DNA from: Acetobacter nitrogenifigens DSM 23921 = NBRC 105050
GTDB lineage: Bacteria > Pseudomonadota > Alphaproteobacteria > Acetobacterales > Acetobacteraceae
DNA length: 64,000 bases
Assembly: GCF_000429165.1 (NCBI RefSeq)
Contig: NZ_AUBI01000006.1
Span: forward strand, 62,001-126,000
Direction: 5' to 3'
This document shows, in pieces, positions 8,975 to 63,869 of this stretch. The position numbers were made by a program, and so were the translations under genes. Within the stretch, counting starts at the first letter, position 1. Every line of letters begins with the position of its first letter. The notes beneath the pieces are model-generated. The model was not told the DNA's origin. It did not search any database and saw only the letters and a list, made by a program, of their open reading frames with translations.

Positions 8975-10486
8975 TTATCCCCGGGAAATGCGCTGCCGTC
9001 GCTTCTGCTCATGAACTTTGAAGTTCATGACCAACTGCATCAGGTGAGTGGAATTTCTTGCAAGCTCGTGGCTTACCCCCGTGGTTCGTCGCATCATGGC
9101 TGCGTTACTTCTCATCTCGCGCTCCAGCGTAACTACACCGGCATTGATCTCGTCAATTCGAAGGGCCTGCTCCTCGGCTGCCTCGGCGATTTCGCCAACC
9201 AGCCCTCCGGCGTCCACAACCGATCGCGAAATACTCTCGAGCGCAACGCCGGTTTCGTTCACCAGCTTTACACCCTTTGTGACGTCTTCACCGATAGTTG
9301 TGATCAGGGCTCTCGTTTCTTTTGCCGCGCCTGCCGAGCGTTGCGCCAGAGCGCGGACCTCCTTTGCGACGACCGAAAAACCCCGCCCAGCGTCGCCCGC
9401 GCGCGACGCCTCCACTCCCGCATTCAAGGCCAGGAGATTGGTCTGAAGCGCGATTTCTTCGATGAGCCCAATTATTTGGCTTATCTTTCCACAAGATTCG
9501 GCGATCTGATCAACCGCTGCTATCGTTTCCGCAACTACCGTCCGGCTTTGTCGCGCCTCCCGACCGCAAAGAGAAACAGCAGCATCGGCGCTCTTTGCTC
9601 GTTGAGCAACAGATTTTACCGAATCCGCCAGTGGGCCGATGGTGTTGCAGACCGATTGAGGGCCTGTAGTTTGCTCAGAAATTCTCTGCAATACCTCTTC
9701 ACTCGCTTTGCGAATTTCGCGAGCGCCAACCTCTACCGATTCGGAGGAATGTCTTACTTCAAGGATGATCTCGCTGAGGCCGTTGATGACGTTGGCGAAA
9801 GCCCCTTCCAAACGCCCTCCGTCATGTGACAAGGCCTCATAGTCGCCGAGTAGAAGGTCTCCCTCCGCGACGCGATCCAAAGCAGAGGCGAGCGTGTCGA
9901 GACTTGCTATCCTGGCTTCCTGCGCTCGAACTCTTGCGCCCTCCAGATTCTCCAGATAGGTCGAAATCGCTAAATCCATATCCAGAAGGACAACCTTGAT
10001 CAGAAGCGCGATTTGCTCGCCCAGTTCCTCCCCTTCGCTCTTCGGAACGGGCGCGGAGAATAAGGATCGCTTGGCGGACGGCCATGCGTTTTTGATCGCG
10101 CTGCGAACGACTTCTCCCAAAAGGACACTGTAGCCGGCAATATACCAGCCGGGATTTAATCCAAGCTTGGCATGCATGTTCCCGATTGCGGTAACTGCGG
10201 AAATGTAATCCGATCCGAATTTTGCGTCGGTGACAGAATGCCAATGGCTTTTTTGGCGTCCTTTTGCAGATTTTATATGTTCTGAATTCTCAAAAAAATT
10301 TGAAAGTTCGGAAACTTGTAAAATTTTTTCATAGAAGAGATCCAGACCTGCTGGTATTGCTTTCATAATGTCTGGTTGGGCGGAGCGAATGATATCGCAC
10401 TCGCGTGTTCCTAACCCTAAGAACTGAAGCTTGCGTTGTATGTCGTCATGTAAATTATTCACGCTGGAATCCCGTCGAAAAGGCAA
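8975..10486 (-). CDS. Globin-coupled (HemAT-like) soluble chemotaxis transducer
   Basis: Residues 15-175 look like the protoglobin sensor domain of HemAT: D-L-F-Y-E-K-I-L, then I-G-N-M-H-A-K-L-G-L-N-P-G-W-Y-I-A-G-Y, where His105 is the expected proximal heme ligand. Residues 190-490 are a methyl-accepting coiled-coil signalling domain with the conserved hairpin tip [17 protein letters not shown] and G-R-G-F-S-V-V-A-K-E-V-R. There is no transmembrane segment, so it is a cytoplasmic gas sensor, probably for O2. It lacks a C-terminal W-x-x-F tether. It is transcribed divergently from the chemotaxis operon starting 200 bp away, which provides CheA/CheW partners. The first about 90 codons are AT-rich like that operon. 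Confidence 0.88.
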   Translation of the reverse strand: MPFRRDSSVNNLHDDIQRKLQFLGLGTRECDIIRSAQPDIMKAIPAGLDLFYEKILQVSELSNFFENSEHIKSAKGRQKSHWHSVTDAKFGSDYISAVTAIGNMHAKLGLNPGWYIAGYSVLLGEVVRSAIKNAWPSAKRSLFSAPVPKSEGEELGEQIALLIKVVLLDMDLAISTYLENLEGARVRAQEARIASLDTLASALDRVAEGDLLLGDYEALSHDGGRLEGAFANVINGLSEIILEVRHSSESVEVGAREIRKASEEVLQRISEQTTGPQSVCNTIGPLADSVKSVAQRAKSADAAVSLCGREARQSRTVVAETIAAVDQIAESCGKISQIIGLIEEIALQTNLLALNAGVEASRAGDAGRGFSVVAKEVRALAQRSAGAAKETRALITTIGEDVTKGVKLVNETGVALESISRSVVDAGGLVGEIAEAAEEQALRIDEINAGVVTLEREMRSNAAMMRRTTGVSHELARNSTHLMQLVMNFKVHEQKRRQRISRG

Positions 10487-10687
10487 TAAAACAGATTAAA
10501 GACCATAATTTAAAAATAATGCCGAATATATTACCAAAAAGTTGACGAAGGGTGCCGACGCTCTTTAATGCGTCTGGTAACCATTTTTTATCAAAATAGG
10601 GCGTTTACTACGTTCGATGGGGCCGTGTGAACGGGATTAGTATTGCGGAGTCAATTCATTTTTCGGCCCGCCAATGAAAGTGGAAAA

Positions 10688-12163
10688 ATGCGCCTGTTTC
10701 GTTCTTCTTTGGAGAGTTTTGTTTCGGCGTACATAAGCTGTATGATAATTTTCTTTTGTGCTTTTTCTATGATGTTGCGGTTAGACGGTAGTGAGTTTTC
10801 GCCATTTTTAATTGGATTTACGTGTCTCCTATTTTTATTTTCTACTTTCCCCGTGGTTGTTTTTGTTGTCAAAAAAATAATATCGCCGATTCGTGAAATA
10901 ATTCAGTCTATTAATCAGGTAAGTTCCACATCTAAAATAAATATTTATTCCACCTCTGTTAAATTTGGTATAATAAAAGATTTGTGTCAAGCTGTAGATT
11001 GCGCTAACTCGAAGTTCGCCGATCGCGTGGATCATTTAAAAAAAGAATTGAAAAACGAAAATGTAGCAAAAAATAATATTCAACTACGTTTGGATTTAGC
11101 AGAGAAAGAGAGGGATTCAGCGAACCACGCTCTGGAGCAGATGGTGGACGCGATGAAGAAGCTCGCCTCTGGTGATTTTAGGTGCCGTTCTTCAAATATT
11201 ATAGACAATAAATATCAAATTCAAAGAAATATATTCGATAAGTCAATTGAAAAATTAGCCGAAATATTTGGGAGAGTTGCGTCAAGTGTAGCGACTATAG
11301 CGTCGGGTTCATCGGAAATTGCGCTAGCGTCTGATGATCTGGCCCGTCGCACTGAAAGGCAGGCCGCCAATCTCGGTGAGACAGCCGCGTCCGTAAATAC
11401 AGTTACTGTTGGGGTCCAGAAAACAGCTCAGGCTGCCCTTGACGCTAGAAAAGCGGCGGGCGGCGCTCGTGACGAGGCCACGGAGTCCGGTGCGGTGATG
11501 AAGTCCACTATAGAAGCGATGCGCGAAATAGAGGATTCTTCAAAAAAAGTCGCAGATATATTGGGAGTTATAGACGAAATTGCATTTCAAACAAATCTAC
11601 TTGCGCTAAACGCGGGGGTGGAGGCGGCAAGGGCCGGCGATGCAGGGCGTGGCTTCGCAGTTGTTGCGACGGAGGTTAGATCGCTTGCACAGCGCTCTGC
11701 GGCTTCCGCAAAAGACGTCAAGGAACTTATCCTATTATCAGGACGCCAGGTTTCACGCGGGGTGACGTTGGTGACACAGACCAGCGCGGCGCTGTCGAAG
11801 ATATCACACAACGTAGGAACCATATCGTCCCTGATCGAAGACATCTCGTCGTCTGCACATCAACAAGCGGAGAATTTGACAGAAATTAACAGAGCTATTA
11901 GTGAAATGGACCAGACGACGCAGCAGAATGCCGCGATGGTAGAGCAAACAACGGCAGCAAGCCACAATCTTACCAGAGAAACGAGGGATCTTGAAAATCT
12001 CGTGGGTGATTTTCATATGAAAGATCATATTCGCAACCTCAGTAAAAAAACACAACAAACAAAATCTTTGGTTTCTTTCGATAAAATAGAACAAAAAAAC
12101 TATCAAAATACAAAAAATAAGGAAAATAAAATATCGTCAGATGAGGGATGGGAAGATTTTTGA
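10688..12163 (+). CDS. Methyl-accepting chemotaxis protein without a periplasmic domain
   Basis: From the ATG at 10688 the protein is 491 aa. Two hydrophobic segments (about 12-30 and 38-60) are separated by only about seven residues (R-L-D-G-S-E-F), so there is no room for a periplasmic ligand domain. A HAMP-like stretch follows, then [10 protein letters not shown] (a second HAMP-like motif), methylation helices and the signalling tip [23 protein letters not shown]. The last residues are E-G-W-E-D-F, fitting the x-W-x-x-F pentapeptide that tethers CheR and CheB in major receptors. An upstream TTG (10643) is possible but adds nothing conserved. First gene of the che operon. Confidence 0.9.
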
Positions 12164-57519: not shown

Positions 57520-58095
57520 TTAGTCAGTCGCCTCCATTATCCTGTAAAAGACGTCCACGCCTTCGGCTTTCGTATCGACGATTGTCGCTTTCAGCGCGCC
57601 TGAGTCGGTTCCGGCCGGCGCCTCGACAAAGACGGTGGCAGGAGACGTTCGTGAGCCATAACGGCGTTTCGTCGCGTTGTAGCCGTCGCGCCCATAGCAT
57701 CCGCTATCCGGTGCGCGCCACGGTTCGAAAATGGTCACATCTGGCGCAACACCCTGAAGCTTGCTGACAAGAGCTGGTCTGGTGTTGCGAGGAGCTATGA
57801 GCGTCTGCTGGATTCGCGTGATATATGCTGCGTCCGTTTCGGAAGTAATTCGTACGAGATCGCTTCCAAAGTAATCTGCGGCTGCAGCGTCAATAAAATT
57901 TCCTGTACTGCTTTGCAGACGCGCCTGATTCGCAGTGTAGGCGAGCAGCGCGTGCAATTGAGCCCAGGGCCACGCGAACCCGGTCAGCAGGCCGTCCAGA
58001 ACGGGCGTGCTGTTTTCTTCGGTTGACGGAAACCATCCTTGCGGCAGCACTGCGCGGATACGCGCGGCCATATCGTCAAGATCGCCGATCGCCAT
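57520..58095 (-). CDS. Phage tail protein in the gp48 position
   Basis: 191 aa, no membrane segment. The stretch I-F-E-P-W-R-A-P-D-S-G-C-Y-G-R-D-G-Y-N is like one I know from tail proteins next to baseplate J in alphaproteobacterial prophages. An N-terminal part with L-P-Q-G-W-F-P and W-P-W-A-Q-L-H matches the same group. It follows gp47 by 38 bp and is the last gene of the element before host DNA. In Mu, gp48 connects the baseplate to the tail fibre; here no fibre gene follows. Confidence 0.65.
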   Translation of the reverse strand: MAIGDLDDMAARIRAVLPQGWFPSTEENSTPVLDGLLTGFAWPWAQLHALLAYTANQARLQSSTGNFIDAAAADYFGSDLVRITSETDAAYITRIQQTLIAPRNTRPALVSKLQGVAPDVTIFEPWRAPDSGCYGRDGYNATKRRYGSRTSPATVFVEAPAGTDSGALKATIVDTKAEGVDVFYRIMEATD

Positions 58096-58133
58096 GAGTT
58101 TTCAGATCCTGTACTGGTATATATTCCGAATAA

Positions 58134-59276
58134 TCACGAACTGATCAGTGTGACCGTCACCGATGCGGCGCGCACGACACTTCCTGTGTCGCCGCCGATG
58201 TCCGCTGCAGCTCCATTGACGGTAACAATCCCCACACTCTTTACGAGGGTTCCCGCCGCCGTAAGTGCAGCGCTGGAGATTCTTGTGTAACTGCAGGTGG
58301 CGCCGACCGCGAGGGCGTTGACGTATGCGAGAACGCCACTTTCCACGGAGGTTTGCACAGACGCCAGCACGACGCCGTCGGCGAGCGTGACAGGCACGAC
58401 GATTACCGCCGGAACCAGCGCTGCGCGGATGGTGGCCGTCTCGACGCCACAGGCGCGTTGCGCTTCGATCGCCGCCTCGACGCTTGCTACGGTGGCGTCC
58501 GGAGCGTCACCAGAGCCGTCGTCGATCGCTGCGAAGAAAAACCCAGGACGATAGACACTATTGGGCGTAGTATTTTCGATGACCTGATAAGTCAGGTTAG
58601 ACGATACGCCAGCGATGGCGCCCTCAACGGCCTTCAGGGTCGCGGAAGACAGGGACGCGAACCAAAGAGTCACGCGCGCTTTCACAGCCGCGTCGCTCTC
58701 CTGATTGGATCCGTTTGTGGCGGCTGCGAGATTGGAACAGGTGTCGATACCAGAGATCTGCGTGCCCAGGAGATTGAGCACGCCTGCTGTCACGTTCCCT
58801 GTTGTTCCAGTGGCCAAACATTGAACCGGGCAGGTGATGGACGCCACTCCCTTTGCCCGGATATATCCGCCGGCGGACGTCGACCAGTAAGGATTCGACG
58901 TGTCGGATACTACGGAAAATGAAATTGTTCCATCTGAGGATTTTACGATCGCTCCGACGGGCACGACGGCGGACGAACTCTGTGGCGCGAGGCAGATGAA
59001 TGTCTCGGTGGTGGTAGCGGCAGTCGCGCCCAATCTGCTCATGCCGAACTGGGCGATCCATGAATCGACATCGTCGCCATAAGAAGACGCCAGACGCGTC
59101 GTGGCCAGCACCTGGAGCAGAAGGTATTGAAGCCACAATGCGACTGTCGCATTGGCTTCCATCAGGGAGCGTGAGACAGAACCAGTTGTAAAGTCGAGAA
59201 GGGACTTACAGGCGCCCTGAGCGGCGGCTGCAGCGTTAGACACCATGGTCGAAAAATTCTGGAGTGAGGGGGTCAT
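58134..59276 (-). CDS. Baseplate J-like protein (Mu gp47 / P2 gpJ)
   Basis: 380 aa. The N-terminal part (G-S-V-S-R-S-L-M-E-A-N-A and W-L-Q-Y-L-L-L-Q) and S-Y-G-D-D-V-D-S-W-I-A-Q-F-G-M-S-R fit the baseplate J/gp47 family. A repeated A-T/S-rich beta region follows with V-V-P-V-G-A-I-V-K-S, and C-terminal helices E-A-A-I-E-A-Q-R-A-C-G-V-E-T. It forms the wedge arms of the contractile baseplate. It is separated by one base from the gp46 gene upstream. Confidence 0.88.
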   Translation of the reverse strand: MTPSLQNFSTMVSNAAAAAQGACKSLLDFTTGSVSRSLMEANATVALWLQYLLLQVLATTRLASSYGDDVDSWIAQFGMSRLGATAATTTETFICLAPQSSSAVVPVGAIVKSSDGTISFSVVSDTSNPYWSTSAGGYIRAKGVASITCPVQCLATGTTGNVTAGVLNLLGTQISGIDTCSNLAAATNGSNQESDAAVKARVTLWFASLSSATLKAVEGAIAGVSSNLTYQVIENTTPNSVYRPGFFFAAIDDGSGDAPDATVASVEAAIEAQRACGVETATIRAALVPAVIVVPVTLADGVVLASVQTSVESGVLAYVNALAVGATCSYTRISSAALTAAGTLVKSVGIVTVNGAAADIGGDTGSVVRAASVTVTLISS

Positions 59277-59277
59277 G

Positions 59278-59634
59278 TCAAAGTTCCAGCGCGACCGTGC
59301 CGCCTGTTTCTGTGTTGGTGTAGGTGATCGAAATACGCGTACTGCCTTGCCGCGGCCTAGTGACGGCTATGATCGGCGCGGGCGTCGAAGAAACCGATGC
59401 CTCAAGCTGGATCTGTTGGGAAATCAATGTTTCCAGATCAGCCGGAACGTCCGCGCCCCCTACTCGACCAGGAAGCCCGGCGCCATAATCGAGAGAAAAT
59501 ATGTAATCTCCCGCATTCGTCGCAAGACGGCGAAGAATTCTCTGGTTCGAAGCGTCAACACCTGACGCCACCGCAATGTCGCCCGAAGAACCCAGCGTCA
59601 GATCCGAACCGGGGACATGATAGACGTCAGGCAT
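59278..59634 (-). CDS. Baseplate wedge protein gp46/gp25-like (GPW family)
   Basis: 118 aa. D-L-T-L-G-S-S-G-D-I-A-V-A-S-G, then N-Q-R-I-L-R-R-L-A-T-N-A-G-D-Y-I-F and Y-G-A-G-L-P are typical of the gpW/gp25 lysozyme-like wedge proteins of contractile tails. It precedes gpJ in the standard order. Confidence 0.82.
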   Translation of the reverse strand: MPDVYHVPGSDLTLGSSGDIAVASGVDASNQRILRRLATNAGDYIFSLDYGAGLPGRVGGADVPADLETLISQQIQLEASVSSTPAPIIAVTRPRQGSTRISITYTNTETGGTVALEL

Positions 59635-59673
59635 GTTTTCGTTCCGATCATTTGATGTGCGTGTGAAGCGGTG

Positions 59674-60222
59674 TCATTCCGAAACCGGAGTGCCGGAGAG
59701 GCTTGATCCACTTTGTACGCCACGGTGAATATGCTGTTCCAGGCTAACCCCAGAAGTAGAAATATCGCCTTGAGCGCTGATTGTTCCATGAACGGAAAGA
59801 TTTCCGCGGATGACGAGGGGGCCTACGACGGTGATTCCGTTTTCAGAAACTACAAATTCAGTATCGGCAATTTTTATGCCAAATTGCCCTGCCTGAAGCA
59901 CGGCGCCTCCAAGCGCCGAAAAAGCAGGCGGCATTGAGACGGCGTCGAAAATTCTTGTTACTACAATATAGTTGTCCCCATCGCCCTGCACTGTCTCAAT
60001 AAGGACATGAGACCCCAGTTCCGAGGGCGCGTAGCAGACAGTCGCACCCACGGCGATCGCTGCATCACAGATCCAGCCCGTTTCGGTGTTCTCAGGTTGA
60101 AGCCTTACCTTGACCAGTCCTGAAGACGGATCGACGGCGCTCACGACGCCAAGTCGAGCGCGCCCAATCCTGCTGGCATGCGCGTGCATTTGCATGTCGA
60201 GAACGCTACGTAAACTATTCAC
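59674..60222 (-). CDS. Baseplate spike protein gp45/gpV-like
   Basis: 182 aa. An N-terminal OB-fold-like part with G-V-V-S-A-V-D-P-S-S-G-L-V-K-V-R-L is followed by a beta-helical region and the C-terminal motif L-E-Q-H-I-H-R-G-V-Q-S-G-S-S-L-S-G, in which the H-x-H pair is the iron-binding tip of P2/Mu-type membrane-piercing spikes. The start overlaps the gp44 stop by four bases (ATGA at 60219-60222). Confidence 0.87.
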   Translation of the reverse strand: MNSLRSVLDMQMHAHASRIGRARLGVVSAVDPSSGLVKVRLQPENTETGWICDAAIAVGATVCYAPSELGSHVLIETVQGDGDNYIVVTRIFDAVSMPPAFSALGGAVLQAGQFGIKIADTEFVVSENGITVVGPLVIRGNLSVHGTISAQGDISTSGVSLEQHIHRGVQSGSSLSGTPVSE

Positions 60223-61331
60223 GAGACGTTCCCCAGATTGCTTCTGTTCCTGAGCGTAATACTTTGCGTCACGCGAGGCCCGCTCAATGAAAAAATAACG
60301 TCATCGACGGTGTAAGGAACTCCGTCAAACGAAGTGCCGGTTCCTTGAAGGATCACGCGTTGGCGCGGTGATATGGACAGAGAGGGATGGACGTTCATGG
60401 ACAACGTTCTCGCGTGAGCCATGGTTTCATTATATTTCTGTCGCGCCAGAGCGGCGCATTCATCCAGTGTTGTGCCAACAGCGGCCGTATAAGCATAGCG
60501 TGGACCGCCGGTTGATATGTCCGACGGGTAGGTCGCGGAGTGAGACGTTCTTTGCCGGGCGTCCCAAGCAGAAACGGTTACTGCAGTGCTGTCAGAATAG
60601 GCGATCCTTCGAGAAAGCGCGAGATTCCACACAGACGAAACGGGGTATTTTGTTTCTGAATCGGCCTGCTTCCAATTCAAATATAAAATTTCATCGTTTT
60701 CGTTCGGGGCTTTGAAGTAAAGAGTGTTGCCGTCGACCCATAGGTCGTAACCATACCGTCGCTGCATTCCGACGCAGAAATCCCATGCCGTCTGAAATCG
60801 GTGCATGCCTCGAAGGCCGTGAGCTTTGTGCTCGTACTGATAAAATTGCCCGACGAGGCCGGATGTCGTGTCCACGTCCGGTGTCAGGCCAACGTCCATG
60901 GCTAACTGAGCAATTGCCTCTGAGGCCGTAAAATTTAGAAACGACTGCCCCGAAAGTTCACGCTCGATGAGTCGCGCTGATCGGTCTCTGCCGGAGACGA
61001 TCACGCTATTACCTGCTGGAGTATAGTGTGCGTGATCGACAACGCCTCCAAAGAGCAGAGAATAGGGCTGGGTTCCCTCATTTTGGCCGAGTGGGAGGAA
61101 TCCCAGATAAATCTCTATGGGTAGTTCAAATGTGCCGACATCAGGATCGAACCAGTACGGAGATGACGCCTCCACCGGAAAAGTTACGGAAAATGTTCCA
61201 GATTCAGACAATCTGCTCTTTTTAATATGAACATTTGAGGCGGTAGGCAACGCTGTTCCGTTAGTCATGACCAGAAGGCGGGGCTGCGCCACTGAATCGC
61301 CTACGGTTGCGGGCAGGTTTAATGTAAGCAT
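60219..61331 (-). CDS. Tail hub protein gp44/gpD-like (late control D family)
   Basis: 370 aa. V-I-V-S-G-R-D-R-S-A-R-L-I-E-R-E-L and D-F-C-V-G-M-Q-R-R-Y-G-Y-D-L-W-V-D-G-N-T-L-Y-F are the kind of segments seen in gpD/gp44 hubs, which form the central ring holding the spike. The gene is transcribed between the LysM gene and the spike. Length and order agree with Mu gp44 (379 aa). Confidence 0.85.
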   Translation of the reverse strand: MLTLNLPATVGDSVAQPRLLVMTNGTALPTASNVHIKKSRLSESGTFSVTFPVEASSPYWFDPDVGTFELPIEIYLGFLPLGQNEGTQPYSLLFGGVVDHAHYTPAGNSVIVSGRDRSARLIERELSGQSFLNFTASEAIAQLAMDVGLTPDVDTTSGLVGQFYQYEHKAHGLRGMHRFQTAWDFCVGMQRRYGYDLWVDGNTLYFKAPNENDEILYLNWKQADSETKYPVSSVWNLALSRRIAYSDSTAVTVSAWDARQRTSHSATYPSDISTGGPRYAYTAAVGTTLDECAALARQKYNETMAHARTLSMNVHPSLSISPRQRVILQGTGTSFDGVPYTVDDVIFSLSGPRVTQSITLRNRSNLGNVS

Positions 61332-61415: not shown

Positions 61416-61610
61416 TCATACCTGATCGACGCCTCCGGACTGGGTCGCATCAACTGGCGGCACTGCTATGGTTATGATCTGAGGAATCCAGATGTCGGTA
61501 AGTCCATTTAGGCTCATTATTCTGTTGGCTTGGGTTGCATCGCCGAGTAGGCGAGCAGCGACATGCCACAAAGATATATCAGAAGGGCCAATAGTTCGGA
61601 TGTTCGCCAT
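61416..61610 (-). CDS. Small LysM-type tail protein (tail X-like)
   Basis: 64 aa. S-L-W-H-V-A-A-R-L-L-G-D-A-T-Q-A-N-R-I-M-S-L-N-G-L-T-D plus W-I-P-Q-I-I-T-I-A-V-P-P is a LysM fold as in P2 gpX and other inner-tube cap proteins. It starts two bases after the gp43-like stop. Too short to be certain beyond the family. Confidence 0.72.
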   Translation of the reverse strand: MANIRTIGPSDISLWHVAARLLGDATQANRIMSLNGLTDIWIPQIITIAVPPVDATQSGGVDQV

Positions 61611-61612
61611 AG

Positions 61613-62542
61613 TCAGGGTGTAGTCGTCAAATTTGATGCGCCAGTTGCAATGTTTACATTTGCGGTTGCGCGACTGACGTAGGCGTTGGTAGAGGCGACG
61701 GATGCTATGATGCCGGAATGTCCTACGGCAGCCGATAGGGCGCTCATGCCGCCGACGACATCGGGTCCTGAGTTTTCTGCGATAGAAGAAAGTTCCTGCC
61801 CTGATAGACCCATCATGGAATACAAAGATGAACTGAGAGAACTCAATTGTTCTCCGACGTTGTTGATAGACGACGTAGAACTCGTGGACGAAAGGCCTCC
61901 CGCAACCGTTGCTACGCCGGTTAACTGACTATACAGCGTCGCCATCGAATTCCCCGTTCCAAAGAGACTCGCTAGAGGGGTTATTTGACCGGCATAGACG
62001 CCTATTGCTGACGTTACCGCTGCGGCATATGAAGTGAGGGAACTCATTGCGGCAGAGAGCGTCGATACTGCAGTCGCGCCGTCGGAGCCGATAAGGTTGG
62101 CCAGCGCCGATTTTGTGCCGTTAAGCGGGTTTGGAACTGAGCGTAAGACCTCACATCGTATGTTGTATGGAACAATGTTTCCATTTTCTGTGTATATAGC
62201 TTGAAACGACGTGATTATCACTTGCCTAGACAACGCGGCGCCAGCAAATGAAAGCACGTTACCCGACCGCGCCATGGTTTCAAGGGCTTGGGCGCGTGCT
62301 ACTGCATTATACCCACGGAAAATGCCACTCCACTCCAAGGGTGCGTCGAAATATCCTTCTAGCGATATAGTCTTGGTTCCGCCGGAACTCCACGAGACTG
62401 AGGCGTTCTGAATTCCTCCCCAAGGTAAAAAAGAGGGAACCTCAGTGTCAAGAAAGGCGAAGGAACCGAGGGTAAACGCACGTGCACTTGATAGGGATGC
62501 GACAGCCGAGGCCGTCCTCAGGAGATTCGTCATGCGTGCCAT
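61613..62542 (-). CDS. gp43-like tail protein (DNA circularisation N-domain type)
   Basis: 309 aa. The first about 130 residues (T-L-G-S-F-A-F-L-D-T-E-V-P-S-F-L-P-W-G-G, S-L-E-G-Y-F-D-A-P-L) are like the N-terminal domain of Mu gp43 (DNA circulation protein). The C-terminal 170 residues are Ser/Ala/Thr/Gly-rich, low-complexity and with no clear fold. The start is ATG 62542 or ATG 62533; it overlaps the end of the AT-rich gene upstream, implying translational coupling. Confidence 0.7.
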   Translation of the reverse strand: MARMTNLLRTASAVASLSSARAFTLGSFAFLDTEVPSFLPWGGIQNASVSWSSGGTKTISLEGYFDAPLEWSGIFRGYNAVARAQALETMARSGNVLSFAGAALSRQVIITSFQAIYTENGNIVPYNIRCEVLRSVPNPLNGTKSALANLIGSDGATAVSTLSAAMSSLTSYAAAVTSAIGVYAGQITPLASLFGTGNSMATLYSQLTGVATVAGGLSSTSSTSSINNVGEQLSSLSSSLYSMMGLSGQELSSIAENSGPDVVGGMSALSAAVGHSGIIASVASTNAYVSRATANVNIATGASNLTTTP

Positions 62543-63387
62543 CCTGGATAACTAGGTACCGCTTGTGGCCATGACAGGGTGGAGTTTGTTGGCGCGGCAG
62601 ATAGTCCATTAATCAGATGAGAGGTCACTGCGTCAGCAAATTCGCTTATACTCGGCTGGTAGACTGTTGAAAATTTTTGGTTTTGAAAATTCGAATGTTC
62701 CATGTGCATGATTTGTGGAAAATTATAACTATTTCTAAGAAATTCGTGGGAAATTTTAGGATTGATCGTCTTTAGGTCATCTGTTGCCCGTAACTGAGAT
62801 GTGCTGTAAGCAAGGGGTTGGTACGGAATCGGAGCGAAATGATCTCGTGTCGTACGTAATTTATTTCTGAAAATAGATGAAAAAATCGATGAGTTCTTCT
62901 GTTTTGTGGTGGTAGATTTTTTATATGTCGCACGAGATGCTCGGATTCGTTTAATTACCCTGGGTATCACGGTGAGATGTTTGTCAAAGAGATGAATGGG
63001 AAGTTGAACATTTCTTTTTTGAATAACATAGTCTGCGAAAGATCGTGTTAAAGAAGAGAGATATAAAAATTTTTTTGGAGTCACGTAGTTAATGTTTGAT
63101 TTTTTGTGTGGAATTGAGTGTTTAAATATTTTTATAGAATTCGATTTTTTGTTTTCGAAAAAATTTTTATGTTGAAATTGTAAGTGGTTTTTTTTCAGAA
63201 AAAACGGAGCTTTCTTTAGGGTAGCGTTTTCCTGTGGACGCGCACCCTGTGCAAAATTACTTGTCGTGTAGAGAATGTTTGCGCGTAACTTACTCAGCGT
63301 CGGTATATTTTTTTTGATAAAAATTGAATTGTGTAGGGGGGGGGTAATATTTCTTAGAATGTGAAGAATTTTTTGAATGCGAGCCAT
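62530..63387 (-). CDS. AT-rich basic protein, downstream frame (tape-measure slot)
   Basis: 285 codons if read from its own ATG at 63387, but the likely gene enters this frame from the upstream one at the C9 tract (63336-63344). The protein is rich in Lys, Arg, His, Asn, Phe and Ser, with no membrane or coiled-coil segment and no known domain. The last 45 residues (E-F-A-D-A-V-T-S-H-L-I-N-G-L-S-A) are less basic and look folded. At about one-third GC stops are frequent, so 285 open codons suggest true coding. It overlaps gp43 by 13 bases. In the Mu order this is the tape-measure (gp42) place. I do not recognise it. Confidence 0.55.
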   Translation of the reverse strand: MARIQKILHILRNITPPLHNSIFIKKNIPTLSKLRANILYTTSNFAQGARPQENATLKKAPFFLKKNHLQFQHKNFFENKKSNSIKIFKHSIPHKKSNINYVTPKKFLYLSSLTRSFADYVIQKRNVQLPIHLFDKHLTVIPRVIKRIRASRATYKKSTTTKQKNSSIFSSIFRNKLRTTRDHFAPIPYQPLAYSTSQLRATDDLKTINPKISHEFLRNSYNFPQIMHMEHSNFQNQKFSTVYQPSISEFADAVTSHLINGLSAAPTNSTLSWPQAVPSYPGWHA

Positions 63388-63850
63388 GTTGTCTTGAGTA
63401 TTGGGCGTGGAGAGGTGACAAATGCACGACAGGGGCGGCTTTATAATTTTCGAATTTTCCGAGATATCGAGGATTTTGTGAATGCTGTTTATGGAGAATT
63501 TCCTGAAATGTAGCCTTTTGGAATTTAGTTTTTTTTATATGTTTTTTTTCGAAATTTAAAGAAAATGGAAATGGCTTTGTAATTTGATTTATAGATATTT
63601 TTGATTTTTGTAATGATTGGCGGGCGATATTTGCGTCGCGTGCCTGTTTTTGATATCTTGCTACTGTTTTCACTTTAGGGTAAATGAAAATTTCCCGTAA
63701 TTTTGCACTATGTAAGATATTAAATTTACTGTTAGATTGTTTTTGTATGATTTTTTGCAATATAGTTGAAGAGTCATTATGAAAAAAAGCTAAATTATTT
63801 TTAAAATTTCTGTTGAGGTCGCGAGGTCTAGAAAATTTAATTGAAGACAC
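63290..63850 (-). CDS. AT-rich basic protein, upstream frame
   Basis: 186 codons from a GTG at 63850; an in-frame TAA lies two codons before, so no earlier start exists. The product is basic, rich in Lys, Asn, Gln, Ser and Phe, without a known domain. The frame ends at 63290, past the C9 tract; if one C were absent from the tract, the ribosome would pass into the downstream frame, giving one protein of about 440 residues ending at 62530. Ribosome site GAGG lies eight bases before the GTG but within an inverted repeat. Composition is far from that of the gp43-gp48 genes. No function can be named. Confidence 0.5.
   Translation of the reverse strand: MSSIKFSRPRDLNRNFKNNLAFFHNDSSTILQKIIQKQSNSKFNILHSAKLREIFIYPKVKTVARYQKQARDANIARQSLQKSKISINQITKPFPFSLNFEKKHIKKTKFQKATFQEILHKQHSQNPRYLGKFENYKAAPVVHLSPLHAQYSRQHGSHSKNSSHSKKYYPPPTQFNFYQKKYTDAE
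63336..63344. repeat. G9/C9 homopolymer tract in the overlap of two frames
   Basis: Nine G on the plus strand, read as nine C in the mRNA of the AT-rich locus. The upstream frame reads Y-P-P-P-T and the downstream frame T-P-P-L across it. Loss of one base (or gain of two) fuses them. Confidence 0.85.
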
Positions 63851-63869
63851 AGTTTAGACCTCGCGACCT
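63816..63869. repeat. Perfect 15-bp inverted repeat around the start of the AT-rich gene
   Basis: AGGTCGCGAGGTCTA (63816-63830) and its exact complement TAGACCTCGCGACCT (63855-63869), 24 bases apart. On the minus-strand mRNA the loop holds the GTG start and the 5' arm holds the GAGG ribosome site. Each arm is an imperfect direct repeat of GAGGTC with GC between. It stands out in an AT-rich surrounding. Confidence 0.85.

Follow-up and report, generated by a model that had tools for sequence, protein, structure and literature searches.

Tape-measure proteins are, as a rule, long, helical and in part hydrophobic; a helical chain spans about 0.15 nm per residue and an extended one about 0.3 nm, and the control of tail length and membrane passage are usually jobs of one protein. 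For the tape measure of phage TP901-1, the C-terminal ~60 residues, 154 N-terminal residues and the first hydrophobic region are reported to be required, the C terminus for assembly, and when parts of the body are deleted, the tail becomes shorter, roughly in proportion (PMC5099701). In phiCbK and many dsDNA phages, the tape-measure gene comes after a frameshifted gene pair with AAAAAAC or GGGAAAC (PMC3556154), and according to one review, phage tube lumens are negatively charged, with lambda as an exception (PMC8718954). In the Komagataeibacter phage phiKX1, whose particles have tails of 98.9 nm by transmission electron microscopy (TEM) (PMC8566455), the tape measure (742 aa; annotated as hypothetical, BCZ76066.1) follows the sheath, tube and chaperone genes. 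Classical tape measures of other Acetobacteraceae phages (P0003-P0019; phrog_28 group) are placed before a gp43-like gene. The literature that we searched, mainly freely accessible, contained no disordered or condensed tape measure and no Acetobacteraceae gene transfer agent that we recognised.

The window analysed here is a stretch of 64,000 nucleotides, bases 62001-126000 of contig 6 in the 4.27-Mb genome of Acetobacter nitrogenifigens. At one end of it, a small contractile-tail phage element lies on the minus strand. In the adjoining extract L002 (contig 6, 122000-141999), its genes run in the order terminase large subunit, portal, scaffold, major capsid protein, head or neck genes, sheath, tube and chaperone; these are followed by the gene studied here, by the gp43-like gene with which it overlaps, by a LysM-like gene and by the baseplate genes down to window position 57520 (Table 1). 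We refer to the place between chaperone and gp43-like gene, which is also that of the phiKX1 tape measure, as the slot. Gene roles were taken from PHROG matches, some being assigned by order only, and the Mu-like character of the element was judged solely from the order and PHROG matches of its tail and head genes. Relatives of the gp43-like gene occur in 120 of 299 family genomes. Upstream of the sheath, the N-terminal part of a 643-aa protein (L002 6698-8629) is phage-like (phrog_13532, residues 7-278); its long C-terminal part resembles, by eye and from a motif, a glycoside hydrolase, and a Pfam scan matched no family. We looked for a typical tape measure upstream combined with noncoding DNA in the slot and found no such combination among the element proteins scanned. 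These gave no match to a tape-measure PHROG outside the slot (gp46, 59278-59634, gp47, 58134-59276, and a helix-turn-helix [HTH] ORF, L002 15584-15904, lay outside the scan), which leaves the slot gene as the sole candidate, among the proteins scanned, for the tape measure of this tail module.

Table 1. Features of the slot and its neighbours (window positions unless marked otherwise)
Feature	Position	Strand	Remarks
N-terminal slot piece	63290..63850	-	186 aa, pI 10.4, GTG start; aligns with the intact sister protein over its residues 1-191
C-terminal slot piece	62530..63387	-	285 aa, pI 10.6; frame stays open 49 codons further upstream
C9 homopolymer (coding strand)	63336..63344	-	Within the overlap of both slot frames
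RNA hairpin, 15 bp	63816..63869	-	GTG start in loop; GAGG in 5' arm; -27.2 kcal/mol, z -7.2 in window
gp43-like gene	61613..62542	-	309 aa; downstream of slot; matches a PHROG of unknown function
LysM-like small tail gene	61416..61610	-	64 aa; Pfam LysM match under cut-off
Tail protein phrog_52	60219..61331	-	370 aa
Baseplate genes (182, 118, 380, 191 aa)	57520..60222	-	Final genes of the element at that end
Chaperone gene	L002 4154-4480 (window 64153-64479 by extension, outside window)		Ends A AAA AAC TGA; 59-aa -1 extension

A sequence-only reading had placed an AT-rich gene of about 440 open codons in this slot. Its location and composition held up: the coding strand of 62530-63850 is G-poor (A 0.378, C 0.237, G 0.116, T 0.269), with a GC content of 0.35 compared with about 0.5 in the neighbouring genes. 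The open codons proved to be coding, as their length had been taken to indicate, but they do not form one ORF, being divided between two overlapping frames of 186 and 285 codons. On the coding strand, the longest open run extends over 334 codons, whereas the longest in 1,000 dinucleotide-preserving shuffles was 223; the two longest runs sum to 520 codons, and no such sum in 500 shuffles exceeded 277. The region is a real, coding gene whose frame is broken in this strain, at least in the assembly. The frame likely changes at the C9 run, and the window copy is either inactive or read by slippage, or else the break is a sequencing error. The C-terminal piece is best conserved at its very end, ..SWPQAVPSYPGWHA, and shares 13 bases with the start of the gp43-like gene. 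Around the GTG start of the N-terminal piece, a hairpin encloses the initiation region as though translation were gated, and the GAGG in its 5' arm is a possible ribosome-binding site; the hairpin is far weaker in the sister elements L053 (z -1.8) and L054 (z -1.1).

In a sheath tree built by a quick method, the window element is closest to the elements of Acetobacter sacchari TBRC 11175 (L054) and Acetobacter sp. DsW_063 (L062). The latter is apparently the same element as the viral contig L053, which carries a single intact ORF of 445 codons in the slot, so that the search for the same locus in related elements, proposed from the sequence, did yield slot orthologues. Both window pieces align in order with the 445-aa sister protein at identities of 39% and 37%, while fourteen neighbouring genes are 82 to 99% identical between the two elements. 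The corresponding dN/dS values are 0.48 and 0.46 for the slot pieces and 0.01 to 0.19 for the neighbours, as obtained by a counting method with Jukes-Cantor correction that is rough at such distances. In A. sacchari, the slot (about 9653-10926) is divided into four frame segments, so that of the three closest elements two have a broken frame. Runs of at least seven A's are present in the slots of the window, L053 and L054 and are frequent in L054; the breaks may represent sequencing errors, decay, or changes tolerated through slippage. As a query in 299 family genomes, the 285-aa piece found only itself (1/299); a search of about 5.8 billion proteins recovered, besides the piece itself, a single relative, P0002, which matches nothing in 50,697 phage records.

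With an alignment of ten sheath proteins as the query, a scan of genome contigs yielded at least 79 named loci. Matches to both tube and gp43 were present in 64 of the 79 loci listed; among these 64, 60 carried one short slot ORF of 240 to 500 aa, two carried a classical protein of about 700 aa (L087 and L114), and two were frame-broken (L054 and L132). A gp43 match was missing in the other 15 listed loci, five of which (L070, L072, L073, L082, and L111) encode proteins of 713 to 826 aa, taken as classical tape measures by position and length; the remaining ten were cut by a contig end, interrupted or unclear. Sister phages carry a classical tape measure of about 630 to 830 aa in the same slot. 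The suggestion that the gene is a DNA- or RNA-binding cargo insertion is not supported, a short gene of the same type being present in 60 of the 64 listed loci with both flanking genes. Natural slot ORFs vary in length between genera, with 254 aa in Neokomagataea, about 285 aa in Gluconobacter, about 350 aa in Asaia and 373 to 500 aa in Komagataeibacter. The pI was 9.9 to 12.0 in 59 of the 60 short slot ORFs listed, L117 being the exception (pI 6.0), with a 262-aa slot ORF used for L091. In three classical loci (L072, L082, and L046) a gene of about 170 aa lies between chaperone and tape measure; by eye, we did not see such a gene in short-slot loci. Some short slot proteins contain tandem repeats, such as SN and NHG repeats (L061 9523-10545) and units of about 13 residues (L049, 302 aa), as expected if the body is free to expand.

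We also examined the chaperone gene upstream of the slot. An in-frame slippery heptamer was present near the chaperone stop codon in all 63 listed loci with a chaperone match, window included. Its sequence was A AAA AAC in 59 of them; three Acidisoma-type loci had GGGAAAC/T, and L114 had A AAA AAA. The -1 frame extends the chaperone by 49 to 61 aa in 62 of the 63 loci and by 111 aa in L054, and the extension in L129 differs from all others. Judged from these sequences, the heptamer and the -1 extension probably constitute a programmed frameshift of the G/GT type. The slot follows directly after the tube gene and this frameshifted pair, in the window as elsewhere, which is the position expected of a tape-measure gene and bears out its original placement before gp43.

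We then compared the slot proteins with classical tape measures. The proteins of L087, L114, and L046 matched tape-measure PHROGs, and none of eight short slot proteins scanned matched a PHROG at an E value of ≤0.1. One of the window pieces gave a match of 0.055 to a family of unknown function; apart from sub-threshold matches of the 285-aa piece at chance level, no short slot protein scanned matched a PHROG or Pfam family. A hidden Markov model (HMM) built solely from 16 classical tape measures, each represented by its last 62 residues, detected 25 of 57 short slot proteins at an E value of <0.01 and 44 of 57 after iteration, compared with none of 114 reversed or C-terminally shuffled decoys. 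The set of 57 omits the window N-terminal piece, the slots of L054 and L132, both classical loci and, in Komagataeibacter, six slot genes ending 188 to 1275 bases before gp43 (L076, L080, L086, L095, L102, and L126), and counts both L053 and L062. When 5,364 other ORFs were searched, the first round gave five matches, all of them tape-measure slot genes (the classical protein of L087 and four of these six short slot genes, which the distance filter had dropped), and the second round added one opposite-strand ORF of L118 at an E value of <0.01. The 44 proteins are all but one of the 45 non-Acetobacter members, the miss being L091, which was represented by a wrong-frame ORF. The resemblance is also apparent by eye, for example, between the C termini of phiKX1 (..FRATGTAPDPKQSVQLPGRAIGR) and of the short Komagataeibacter forms (..HRATGTAPDGIQHVQLPGRSVGI). 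These sequence comparisons show that the non-Acetobacter short slot proteins share descent with classical tape measures. Classical forms differ in having a folded-looking N terminus (MADIYKIGVSIGMKDNAS..) and a hydrophobic body, both of which the short forms lack, although by eye the N terminus of Acidisoma-type short forms is partly like the classical one.

None of the 12 Acetobacter-clade slot proteins was detected by the classical C-terminal HMM at an E value of <0.01. Profile-profile comparison of this clade gave a probability of 59% with Gluconobacter-type ends and 9% with classical ends, and 0 of 60 column shuffles scored equally high for either target. A probability of 95% for this clade was rejected, as L062, an Acetobacter copy, was present in the other alignment. 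Given the missing HMM match and the weak profile score, the case for tape-measure descent of the window gene comes mainly from its position, from which we infer common descent of its Acetobacter clade with tape measures. Classical loci are scattered on the sheath tree, which has some long branches, with seven changes of state, at least four of them forced by starred branches; the tree therefore does not establish a single origin of the short state.

In their physical character, the short slot proteins depart from the classical type. A 19-residue window with a mean hydropathy of at least 1.6 was present in 16 of 16 classical proteins, in 1 of 56 short ones and in neither window piece; the very basic protein free of hydrophobic stretches foreseen from the sequence is what the two pieces encode. 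TP901-1 requires its first hydrophobic region, whereas the short slot proteins, with this one exception, show none, and phiKX1 has a near-neutral protein with a hydrophobic segment. For want of this feature in the short family, we treat the slot protein as tape-measure-like in working and not as a full family member. The median net charge per residue is 0.009 in classical and 0.098 in short proteins, the net charge being positive in 55 of the 56 short proteins measured. None of the 16 classical proteins lies on the disordered side of a charge-hydropathy plot, compared with 27 of 56 short proteins and all 12 of the Acetobacter clade (in this set of 16, the phiKX1 protein replaces the partial P0018 of the HMM set). 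An AlphaFold2 model of the L053 protein, calculated from a shallow 12-row alignment, has a mean pLDDT of 42; among its five helices, the C-terminal one (407-423) alone lies in blocks near pLDDT 80, and with so few rows, the low pLDDT would fit disorder without proving it. The chain is probably unstructured.

Positive charge and missing hydrophobic segments would also be expected if a basic nucleic-acid-binding protein (a plug, a DNA-end binder or cargo) had replaced the tape measure, with tail length set in another way. We consider this unlikely, as most members have their C terminus in common with classical tape measures, no DNA-binding family was matched among those scanned, and the charge may in part be a by-product of composition.

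The composition of the slot follows that of the lineage. Slot GC rises with sheath GC3 with a slope of 0.77 (r = 0.93, n = 54), compared with 0.12 for sheath positions 1 and 2, and the slopes of GC2 against the GC3 of tube plus gp43 (n = 56) are 0.60 for the slot, 0.09 for gp43 and 0.00 for tube. Lineage bias can thus produce AT-rich slots here and GC-rich slots in Komagataeibacter, and no foreign origin is needed. The window C-terminal piece has GC contents of 0.40, 0.38, and 0.34 at codon positions 1 to 3 (reference GC3, 0.47), and the window gene and L053 are AT-richer than the trend. This excess, the GC difference from the neighbours and the missing PHROG or Pfam family would suit a foreign or noncoding AT-rich insertion between tail genes. 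Such an origin is highly improbable: it is already contradicted by the orthologues that sister elements carry in this position, the open frames exceed those of every shuffle, and slot GC tracks lineage GC3. The earlier idea of a foreign gene is accordingly not upheld.

Slot dN/dS was below 1 in all 24 computable pairs of 25 tried, close ones included, with a median of 0.52 compared with 0.09 for gp43; the pairs were hand-picked and share loci and so are not independent. These ratios suggest that the slot body codes under weak constraint. In a gap test over pairs, which is sensitive to the choice of start codon, the squared net length change divided by the summed gap squares was 2.0, indicating no compensation. 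Net length change is thus not below the gap-based expectation, which counts against a strict ruler. A dN/dS of about 0.5, the frame breaks in the window and A. sacchari, and this lack of length conservation are what one would see if the tape measure had been lost and the slot gene were its remnant, decaying in elements that no longer make tails. We regard this as rather unlikely, given that a single open ORF is kept in 60 of the 64 listed loci across many genera, that dN/dS stays below 1 throughout, that the HMM-found members retain the C-terminal motif, and that the flanking tail genes are strongly conserved.

Reported tail sizes permit a rough comparison of length. For phiKX1, 98.9 nm over 742 aa corresponds to 0.13 nm per residue. 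TEM gave tails of 71.8 to 94.6 nm for Gluconobacter frateurii and G. cerinus, 75.3 nm for Acidomonas methanolica, and 56 to 60 nm for two strains of Komagataeibacter xylinus (PMC8566455). If these particles came from short-slot elements (strains differ and other prophages exist), the 262- to 299-aa slots of the first three species would correspond to about 0.24 to 0.33 nm per residue, as expected of an extended chain, and the 373- to 378-aa slot of K. xylinus would correspond to about 0.15 nm per residue.

The window element adjoins a tRNA-Pro gene, and from our reading of the ORFs the host genes beside it are presumably fabH, plsX, and ihfA. This host site was absent from the stretches examined in 12 other genomes. 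Assuming that both genes are on one contig there, fabH lies 11.7 kb from the sheath gene in the window, A. sacchari and DsW_063. Upstream host flanks are common to G218, G279, and G250 and to G079, G037, G048, and G054, and downstream flanks are common to G218, G250, G079, and G048. Together the flanks (L134-L143 and L146-L155) tie seven Gluconobacter-type genomes to one chromosomal place, which suggests long residence or one preferred site. Vertical inheritance at a fixed host locus is a trait of gene transfer agents, as is the packaging of random host DNA; these seven genomes share one place, and the element of the window lies elsewhere.

We conclude that the slot region is probably a condensed form of the tape-measure gene, carried by a small phage element with a contractile tail in acetic acid bacteria. 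The conserved slot, the C-terminal homology of the non-Acetobacter members, the classical tape measures that sister phages have in this slot and the lack of any other tape-measure match among the element proteins scanned support the novel short tape measure that the sequence-only reading had offered as one option. Sequence comparison across the slot shows the hydrophobic, structured body replaced by a mostly positive, weakly constrained chain of 240 to 500 aa with a short conserved C terminus. Its function as a ruler is our inference. In the mechanism that we propose, the slot chain would be coated by the tail chaperone together with the product of the -1 frameshift, the C terminus of the chain would sit in the baseplate hub, the basic body would lie along the negatively charged tube bore as a spacer, and tube polymerisation would stop once the chain is covered. 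Such a spacer would need to keep mainly length and charge and not sequence, and the missing hydrophobic region implies that the short family would use another membrane route or has lost DNA delivery.

More tentatively, the slot protein could be a ruler that is nearly free of sequence requirements and of membrane segments, an unstructured basic chain acting by contour length and charge and perhaps extended (>0.15 nm per residue), in a contractile cluster which several acetic acid bacterial genera keep at one chromosomal place and which is possibly a gene-transfer or killing particle. As its composition follows the lineage, annotation shows such a gene as unrelated-looking hypothetical genes, AT-rich or GC-rich by species. 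If true, a sequence-free ruler would separate the control of tail length from membrane passage. The natural series from about 700 aa to 240 to 500 aa, in one slot and with one C terminus outside Acetobacter, makes it testable which features a ruler needs and whether membrane passage is dispensable.
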